Assembly: GCA_009777535.1 (NCBI GenBank)
Contig: WRLP01000027.1
Location: 1 to 35,780, forward strand
DNA length: 35,780 nucleotides
Direction of reading: 5' to 3'
From: Treponema sp.
Lineage (GTDB): Bacteria; Spirochaetota; Spirochaetia; Treponematales; Breznakiellaceae
The notes below the pieces were generated by a model that saw only the letters and a program-made list of their open reading frames with translations, ran no database searches and had not been told where the DNA came from. The translations under genes and the position numbers were made by a program. Position 1 is the first letter of the stretch, and each line of letters begins with the position of its first letter. Positions 15,161-28,094 of the stretch are shown here, one piece after another.

Positions 15161-17731
15161 ATGAAACCAGGCGGAAAAAAGCCCGGACTGCTTTCCGGTT
15201 TCTTTTCGGGAATAAAGGAAAATGTTTCCCTTTTGCTGGATCCCGTCTCCGCCGGCGCCGCGCTGCAAGCCGAAGACTTTCCCCTGCTTCCGCTGAGGGA
15301 CCTGGTGCTTTTTCCGCAGACCGTCGTGCCGCTTTTTATCACCTATTTACCGGGCATGATCGCCCTGGAACAGGCGATAGCCAGGGACAACCGCCTTTTT
15401 GCCGCATGCCTTAAAAAGCATGAGCGCATAACAGATGAAGACGAGCCGTGCAGTACCGGCACAGTAGTCAGAATTATTCAGCACCTTAAACTCCCCGACA
15501 ACACCTACAGGGTTGTACTTCAGGGTGAATACAGGGGTACGATCACCGCTTTAAATTCTCAAAATGGTCTTTCCATGGTGCGGGTAGAGCCTCTTAAAAT
15601 AACCGGCCTTTCCGATCCACTGAACACGGAAGACCTGGGACTGATGCGCAGCTTGCAGAAGTCATTTGTTCAGTATGCCGAATACTCAAAAAAAATAAAC
15701 ACCGACACTCTTTCTGCCGCCGAAAGAACGGAAAATCCTGAACGCCTTGCCAATCTTATCTGCAACGCTTCCTATCTTAAATCAGGGCAAAAAACAGAAC
15801 TCCTCGGCATGGCCGACACAAGGGAAAGGCTGCTGGCGATTCTTGAAACCCTGGAAAGGGAAAACGAAATATACAGCGTTCAGAAAAATATTTCCGGCAA
15901 GGTAAGGAGCAGGATAGACAGGCATCAGCGTGAATACATTCTTCATGAACAGCTAAAGGAAATCAACAAGGAACTGGGCAAGGATAAAATTGAAGATGAA
16001 TTCGCGCTTTTGGAAAAAAGCATTGCCGAAAAATCGCCGCCCACCGAGGTTATCGCGAAAACAAGCAAGGAAATTGCCAGGCTCCGTAAACTCCAGCCCC
16101 TTTCGCCTGAAGCCGGCGTTTTGCGAGGCTACCTTGAATGGATCTCTGACCTGCCCTGGAGCGGCTCATCTGTTGATTCTGGGGATCTTGCCGAAGCGGG
16201 AAAAATTCTCGATGAGGATCACTTTGGAATGCGCAAAGCAAAGGATCGCATTTTGGAATTTATCGCGGTAAGGCAGTTGTTGAGTTGGGGAATGGGGAAT
16301 GGGGAACAGGGAACAGGGATTGTAGATAAAACTGAGGAGTCCTCAACTCCCAGTCCCCAGTCCCCAGTCCCCAGCCCCCAGTCCCCAGTCCCCAGTCCCC
16401 AATCCATTAAAGGCCCAATCCTGTGCTTTATCGGGCCGCCTGGAACGGGCAAGACCTCGCTTGGCAAATCTGTAGCCCGCGCTCTTGGGCGGCGCTTTGT
16501 CCGCATCTCCCTGGGAGGCGTCAGGGACGAAGCCGAAATACGCGGACACAGAAAAACTTATGTCGGCGCGCTGCCGGGCAAAATTATTCAGTCCATGCGT
16601 AAGGCTGGAACAGTTAACCCTGTCTTCCTTCTTGATGAAATAGACAAACTGTCCAGCGACTTCAGAGGCGATCCGGCTTCGGCGCTTTTGGAGGTACTCG
16701 ATCCCGAACAAAACTCAACTTTTCAGGATCATTATCTGGAAGTGCCCTTCGATCTTTCCAGAGTGCTGTTTATTACCACGGCAAATTCCCTGCATACAAT
16801 CCCCTACCCGCTTTTGGATCGCATGGAAATTATCGAGGTTCCCGGGTACGGGGAAAACGAAAAACTTGCCATTGCCAAACAATTTTTGGTTCCCAAAGAA
16901 CTGCGGGAAAACGGCCTTTCAGAGTCGAAAATAATTTTTAAAGATGATGCAATAAGAGATATTATCCGCTACTGGACAATGGAGTCGGGGGTGCGCGGAC
17001 TGGAACGCGAAATAGCCCGCTGTATCAGGAGAATTGCACGTCACGCGGTAAACAAGGGATATGGCAGTGACAAGCCTGTAACTTCTTTCGGAAAAACACT
17101 CACGCCGAAAATTCTTGAAAAGCTGCTTGGCAGGCGAAAGCACAAAAACGATGTTGTCTACAAGGAAGCTCATATTGGCGTAACATACGGGCTTGCCTGG
17201 ACGGAAACCGGAGGAACCATTCTTCCCGTGGAAACGCTTCGTTATGAGGGCGGCGGAGAGCTTCTTATAACGGGGAATCTCGGCGATGTAATGAAAGAGA
17301 GCGCCAGCATCGCCCTTTCATACCTGCGAAGCGTAAAGGAACGCTATAATTTTGACGTCAAAAACTTAAATAAAACCGACTTTCACATTCATGTACCGGA
17401 AGGCGCCATTCCCAAAGACGGCCCTTCTGCCGGCATCACCCTTGCGTCTTCCCTGCTTTCCACCCTGTGCCGAAAGCCCCCCCTCCCCGGTGTCGCGATG
17501 ACAGGGGAGCTTACCCTTACCGGCCGCATTCTTCCCATCGGCGGCCTAAAGGAAAAACTGTTAGCCGCCGTAAGAAATAAAATGGTAAAGGTGCTGCTTC
17601 CAAAAGATAACAGGGAAGAATGGAACGAACTGGATAAGGATATCCGCGAGGCTATCCAGGTTGAATTTGTTGAAAATGCCGATGAAGTATTTTCCCTTTT
17701 GTTTGACGAAGAAATATCAAAAAAACCCTGA
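15161..17731 (+). CDS. lon: Lon protease (La) with a repeat-derived insertion before Walker A
   Basis: Lon is a homo-oligomeric AAA+ serine protease that removes damaged and regulatory proteins. The N-terminal substrate domain starts near FPLLPLRDLVLFPQ, after an extension of about 40 residues. The ATPase has Walker A GPPGTGKTS (about 424-432) and Walker B PVFLLDEIDKLS. The protease domain has the Ser756/Lys799 dyad (PKDGPSAGIT, GGLKEKLLAA). Length is 856 residues against about 780 in E. coli. Between FIAVRQL and KGPILCFIG, where relatives have about four residues, there are about 43, including PSPQSPVPSPQSPVPSPQS, encoded by heptamer repeats. All catalytic motifs are intact and the frame is kept, so the protein may work with a flexible loop. 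It ends the tig-clpP-clpX-lon group, 21 nt after clpX. Confidence 0.95.
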   Translation: MKPGGKKPGLLSGFFSGIKENVSLLLDPVSAGAALQAEDFPLLPLRDLVLFPQTVVPLFITYLPGMIALEQAIARDNRLFAACLKKHERITDEDEPCSTGTVVRIIQHLKLPDNTYRVVLQGEYRGTITALNSQNGLSMVRVEPLKITGLSDPLNTEDLGLMRSLQKSFVQYAEYSKKINTDTLSAAERTENPERLANLICNASYLKSGQKTELLGMADTRERLLAILETLERENEIYSVQKNISGKVRSRIDRHQREYILHEQLKEINKELGKDKIEDEFALLEKSIAEKSPPTEVIAKTSKEIARLRKLQPLSPEAGVLRGYLEWISDLPWSGSSVDSGDLAEAGKILDEDHFGMRKAKDRILEFIAVRQLLSWGMGNGEQGTGIVDKTEESSTPSPQSPVPSPQSPVPSPQSIKGPILCFIGPPGTGKTSLGKSVARALGRRFVRISLGGVRDEAEIRGHRKTYVGALPGKIIQSMRKAGTVNPVFLLDEIDKLSSDFRGDPASALLEVLDPEQNSTFQDHYLEVPFDLSRVLFITTANSLHTIPYPLLDRMEIIEVPGYGENEKLAIAKQFLVPKELRENGLSESKIIFKDDAIRDIIRYWTMESGVRGLEREIARCIRRIARHAVNKGYGSDKPVTSFGKTLTPKILEKLLGRRKHKNDVVYKEAHIGVTYGLAWTETGGTILPVETLRYEGGGELLITGNLGDVMKESASIALSYLRSVKERYNFDVKNLNKTDFHIHVPEGAIPKDGPSAGITLASSLLSTLCRKPPLPGVAMTGELTLTGRILPIGGLKEKLLAAVRNKMVKVLLPKDNREEWNELDKDIREAIQVEFVENADEVFSLLFDEEISKKP
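16285..16402. repeat. Heptamer-repeat insertion inside lon
   Basis: A stretch of 118 bp carries inverted ends, TTGGGGAATGG (16285-16295) and CCAGTCCCCAA (16392-16402), one mismatch in 11. The left half has GGGGAAT and GGGAACA heptamers. The centre has the palindrome TGAGGAGTCCTCA (16333-16345). The right half has about eight CCCCAGT units, with one CCCCAGC variant, at 16348-16403. The length is close to the 117 bp expected for a net gain of 39 codons. It is the same heptamer family as at 32-115. Confidence 0.9.
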
Positions 17732-28028: not shown

Positions 28029-28064
28029 AAAGTAAAAGTTAGAAGATACTTTACCTTTTACTTT
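28029..28064 (+). repeat. Hairpin before the coiled-coil nuclease-like gene
   Basis: AAAGTAAAAG (28029-28038) is the inverse of CTTTTACTTT (28055-28064). The following bases, TTAGAAG, resemble TTAGATG in the hairpin at the other end of the gene (28717-28745), so the gene is framed by related hairpins. Confidence 0.6.
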
Positions 28065-28094
28065 TTAATTATTATCTTTTTATGGAGGGTATAA

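Follow-up and report, generated by a model that had tools for sequence, protein, structure and literature searches.

The Rickettsia palindromic elements (RPE; Ogata et al. 2000) and their Wolbachia equivalents are small, dispersed, hairpin-forming elements that lie in frame in conserved genes whose protein products tolerate them, and they have been described as possible selfish DNA (PMC2229807). Dispersed tandem repeats of a 7-base unit are found in Nostoc and Xanthomonas as heptameric G-quadruplex repeats or STRR, with the units GGGGA(C/T)T and GGGAATC (PMC4692102). These repeats are mostly intergenic in cyanobacteria and Xanthomonas and avoid coding sequence, the intragenic share being 11% in X. 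campestris and 7% in X. axonopodis (PMC4692102).

The locus described here is a heptamer-repeat insert in the lon gene of a Treponema genome, from a clade in which most named relatives are Treponema metagenome-assembled genomes with sample codes that we take to denote termite gut. The window, that is the whole 35,780-nucleotide stretch of DNA analysed, is contig 27 of this 2.77 Mb genome (G000). The lon open reading frame (15161-17731, plus strand), the final gene of tig-clpP-clpX-lon, encodes an 856-residue ATP-dependent protease La, which scored 865 bits against the NCBIfam endopeptidase La model TIGR00763 (cut-off 608) and matched the Pfam families LON_substr_bdg, AAA, Lon_lid and Lon_C. 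The clade-specific variable linker between VRQL (last base 16279) and GPILCF (first base 16412) occupies 16280-16411 on the plus strand and is made of 44 codons versus 5 in outgroup Lons, confirming the 39 extra codons before Walker A that an initial annotation of this DNA had counted. The Walker A motif itself (GPPGTGKTS, 16433-16459, plus strand), located by translation and Lon alignment, follows shortly 3' of the linker. The reading frame is uninterrupted and retains the Walker A, Walker B and protease motifs, as that annotation had also stated.

Tandem repeat detection resolved two arms in the linker, both described here on the plus strand. The purine heptamer arm (16286-16319) starts with TGGGGAA x3 (16286-16306) and continues with GGGAACA x2.6 (16302-16319). 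A core of 29 bases (16320-16348), the hairpin loop between the arms in the RNA fold, has the palindrome TGAGGAGTCCTCA inside it. The pyrimidine heptamer arm (16349-16405), detected by Tandem Repeats Finder and by its periodicity, consists of CCCAGTC x8.1 with 94% matches and codes for PSPQSPVPSPQSPVPSPQS. Complementarity between the inverted arms was 73-90%, and the RNA fold of 16279-16412 was predicted at -66.7 kcal/mol (z = -7.45), as stable as this in 0 of 200 shuffles. Lag-7 identity within the insert was 0.68 where 0.26 was expected (z = 10.5 against codon shuffles). The inverted ends and CCCCAGT repeats described in the initial annotation were recovered, and so was the location; the element covers approximately 16286-16405 and extends slightly past the 16402 at which the annotated interval, 16285-16402, had ended. 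Rfam scanning of the window returned tRNA only, with no known RNA family at the lon insert.

In the AlphaFold model of Lon, residues 380-417 had a pLDDT below 50 and were placed between the final helix ahead of the ATPase core (358-379) and the first strand of that core (421-424), which agrees with the flexible loop adjoining the nucleotide site that had been suggested. The model was similar to solved Lons, with uncertain domain packing (pTM 0.47). As modelled, the insert is a disordered Gly/Pro/Ser-rich surface loop, and its effect on Lon is most likely neutral or mildly modulating. The same genome encodes a second Lon paralogue of approximately 787 residues, which carries no insert (G000:C11:21300-23603).

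Comparison of lon across the clade, using one genome per species, mostly metagenome-assembled, indicated that the insert is not particular to this genome. An insert of 12-112 residues was present at this point in 32 of the 32 clade rows on the tree, versus 5 residues in L052 and the remaining outgroup rows. The near-constant length that the initial annotation had assumed for Lon at this position was thus found outside the genus but not inside it, where every lon carried an insert of variable length. Heptamer periodicity was assessed in 26 of these inserts: the lag-7 signal was significant against codon shuffles in 15 (Fisher p ~1e-18), and in 0 of 26 neighbouring coding segments of equal length used as a control. 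In approximately 11 inserts no heptamer signal was detectable; these may have decayed or may have originated in another way. The repeat state changed at least 9 times on the lon tree. Collectively, an insert has occupied this lon loop since the base of the clade, and its repeat content is species-specific. All clade lons, sampled as one genome per species, were open through the insert, and none was frameshifted. In one relative (G007), a TAA found within lon proved to be at the edge of the gene, outside the insert. The lon of another relative (G009:C83:4420-6930, L387) seemed to be near insert-free at the Walker A site; its alignment was broken near residues 636-641, which suggests an insert in a different loop.

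Heptamer arrays were also found away from lon. A search of the own genome with CCCCAGTCCCCAGTCCCCA, a CCCCAGT trimer, gave 37 matches in approximately 11 places and none with the reversed control. Sampling 832 kb of the same genome, with gene calls made by simple ORF rules, gave 32 arrays with a period of 7, versus 0-10 at periods of 5, 6, 8, 10, 11 and 13. When an initial 436 kb sample was Markov-shuffled, 0-2 period-7 arrays resulted, and a 200 kb sample of the outgroup family contained 1; other members of the genus also showed the period-7 excess. In the samples from the clade as a whole, ORFs called by the same simple rules contained 29 of the 60 arrays. Clearly AT-rich heptamers tended to contain stops and were mostly intergenic; a TTTACTT array of 4.6 copies at 28050-28082 of the window is one example. 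Another AT-rich array (G000:C4:16427-16483) codes for the hydrophobic core of an apparent lipoprotein signal peptide (HFLSVIFYLISVTCYLLFATVAC). Within the window, Tandem Repeats Finder also detected a second array of the CCCCAGT type at the contig start (27-117, minus strand; GGACTGG x13 as read on the plus strand). A shorter array with flanks near-identical to those of 27-117 is present at G000:C1:108443, just upstream of a lipoprotein signal region. A run of 19 G lies near the contig end (35366-35384).

The arrays formed a dispersed family with a hairpin architecture and species-private arms. CCCCAGT was used in the own genome and in G009, GATCAGG had 35 of its 38 matches in a third relative, G016, and CAGTGAG was mostly confined to G007 (129 matches). 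Where two arrays were close to each other, a purine array was followed by a pyrimidine array in 12 pairs, the reverse order was never seen, and one pair was purine-purine; the order is the same on either strand. Some copies were single-armed. In six G016 genes (lon, ileS, oppCD, aat, a histidine kinase and a response regulator) one common core separated the arms and was translated in the same frame in all six (..SGLSPGSPNTEPQSP..), and a second core was common to four other G016 genes. The core shared by the six genes implies that lon, at least in G016, carries a copy of a dispersed unit. No clear second copy of the core of the lon element was found in the own genome; its arms do belong to the family. 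The own genome's units CCCCAGT, GGGGAAT and GGGAACA contain no stop in any frame, and CCCCAGT arrays code for PQSPVPS forward and TGDWGLG in reverse. This stop-free property is not universal among relatives, as reversed GATCAGG and CAGTGAG both contain TGA. Neither a target-site duplication nor a mobilising enzyme was identified for the heptamer elements, and no insertion or excision event within a species was seen in the sample of one genome per species.

Copies were carried in frame by housekeeping genes, identified by reading the surroundings of the arrays and with family models. In the own genome, in-frame arrays were found in the genes for TruB, PrmC (two), QueA, IleS, the dihydrolipoamide acyltransferase E2 (two), a CopA-like ATPase, an RlmL-like methyltransferase, an ECF-type ATPase and an OppC-OppD fusion. 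Those of G016 were in valS, ileS, metH, rimO, HisA-HisI, a histidine kinase and others, and family scans confirmed that ordinary genes were interrupted in frame, for instance ValS within its catalytic domain, MetH, RimO and the histidine kinase. With hosts such as ileS, valS, prmC, truB, queA, E2 and metH, the arrays were not concentrated in dispensable or surface genes. The same loops were reused across species with different heptamers: both PrmC loops were occupied in the own genome and in G007, the same IleS loop was occupied in the own genome, G009 and G016, and the same QueA loop in the own genome and G009. Some in-gene arrays, as in ileS, brought a net gain of only approximately 4 residues relative to relatives, which local replacement or growth by slippage would fit as well as insertion.

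Elements were also observed at gene-fusion joints. These were the OppC-OppD joint of the own genome (L115, G000:C3:27006-27156), found in G016 as well, together with HisA-HisI and a possible QueH-TcdA fusion in G016 (L394, L406 and L393), in which the QueH part was judged by eye. It may be that the elements joined adjacent genes into single reading frames. Heptamer arrays have been reported in the RNase P RNA of cyanobacteria. None was found in RNase P RNA here, but other hairpins were: the RNase P RNA gene of the own genome (G000:C2:103700-104284, L374) measures 585 nt versus approximately 410 in several relatives, and has three hairpin-like inserts, each flanked by CTGACCACTTAA and TTAAGTGGTCAG. 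These inserts are a second, MITE-like palindromic family in an essential RNA.

We propose that termite-gut treponemes carry a dispersed, hairpin-forming repeat element and that the insert in lon is one of its copies, a reading to which we assign a probability of about 0.77. Copying or insertion would place copies in loops that tolerate extra residues. An array of a stop-free 7-base unit is open whatever its phase, since the unit reads as a single 7-residue cycle in all three frames. Selection would then retain a copy only where its length adds up to a multiple of three. The elements could be seen as genomic parasites that the host tolerates and that give its proteins additional floppy loops, and the lon array as a slippage risk that selection purges, rather than a switch in use. 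A wider proposal is put forward tentatively and with more doubt than conviction: the elements might represent an undescribed, proliferating class of hairpin element with species-private purine-then-pyrimidine arms, possibly written by a telomere-like or break-end heptamer-adding activity, that continually remodels loops proteome-wide through in-frame copies in essential genes.

The initial annotation had read the lon array as a switch, in which slippage of the 8-unit CCCCAGT array would toggle Lon in subpopulations. Its frame arithmetic held: a change of -1, -2, +1 or +2 units brings a stop at residues 412-443, before Walker A, and a change of three units either way keeps Lon. The array is long and nearly perfect, and given the insert-free paralogue, loss of Lon might be survivable. 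However, the same arrays lie in frame in ileS, prmC and truB, and in valS in relatives, genes in which an off state would be lethal or very costly, so that switching is not supported. In addition, several clade linkers had no detectable heptamer signal, the clade sample of one genome per species included no off-state lon, and the insert is widespread in the clade, which the annotation itself had taken to argue against switching. We regard a phase-variable lon as very improbable; some slippage within a species may still occur. The loop may instead have been retained for a function in Lon regulation, through substrate access or hexamer dynamics, a suggestion for which its place beside the nucleotide site in the AlphaFold model and its presence in all sampled clade members can be cited; with its sequence, composition and length (12-112 residues) unconstrained, and with the same loops in unrelated enzymes, the chance that this is the explanation appears slim.

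Two further readings concern how the repeats arose. The heptamers could be of local origin, generated by polymerase slippage in a relaxed, disordered loop with no mobile or dispersed element involved. A bias of bacterial slippage towards 7 bases, proposed in PMC4679880, which cites earlier work, would fit, as would the small net gain in ileS and the variable loop length of many clade members even where heptamers are missing. Local slippage does not account for the use of one private heptamer genome-wide in each species, the 12:0 pairing of purine with pyrimidine arrays or the G016 cores common to unrelated genes, and we consider it unlikely. The pairing would follow if the elements were end-addition scars: were both 3' ends of a DNA break extended with purine-rich heptamers, by telomere-like or slippage synthesis, and then rejoined, a strict purine-core-pyrimidine order would result. 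The invariable order, the species-private unit, the variable cores and the small sequence constraint on the site are all consistent with such scars, but the enzyme and template RNA behind them would be hypothetical, and the core common to six G016 genes favours copying of whole elements; this origin is improbable. The dispersed hairpin element remained the preferred reading.

If this reading is true, tandem-repeat hairpins keep invading housekeeping genes in frame throughout a whole bacterial clade that tolerates them, and the RPE idea then covers an additional phylum and an element of a different kind. The copies would amount to many natural experiments on where essential enzymes accept extra loops, and the machinery that writes species-private 7-base repeats would become a testable question. 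The case would also caution against inferring phase variation from an intragenic repeat alone.

The elements were compared with four described systems, and a search of the open-access literature, with subscription papers outside its scope, returned no description of heptamer elements in termite treponemes. Like phase-variable genes with simple sequence repeats, lon contains a tandem unit that is not divisible by three and whose slippage shifts the frame; unlike them, the Treponema hosts are housekeeping genes, the arrays are always in frame in our data, and no on/off alleles were seen. REP/BIME sequences associated with RAYT (Y1) transposases are likewise short palindromic repeats dispersed in the genome. 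REPs are mainly extragenic. Mobilisation by RAYT was ruled out on the absence of PF01797 from the own genome, where no match was found (assembly 93% complete). The STRR/G-quadruplex repeats share with the Treponema arrays a tandem, dispersed 7-base unit, and CCCCAGT is a rotation of the complement of GGGGACT. Approximately half of the Treponema arrays are in ORFs, however, and many form pairs of inverted arms with a core between them; as the intergenic preference was not observed, the arrays do not belong to the standard STRR/G-quadruplex class. The closest likeness is to the RPE, with which the Treponema elements share all three of a dispersed multi-copy distribution, hairpin formation and in-frame location in conserved genes. 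They differ in that their arms are species-private tandem 7-base repeats, their cores vary, the same loops are hit again across species, and their host is a termite-gut Treponema clade. By analogy of architecture rather than sequence homology, the Treponema element appears to work like an RPE, although we do not class it as one.
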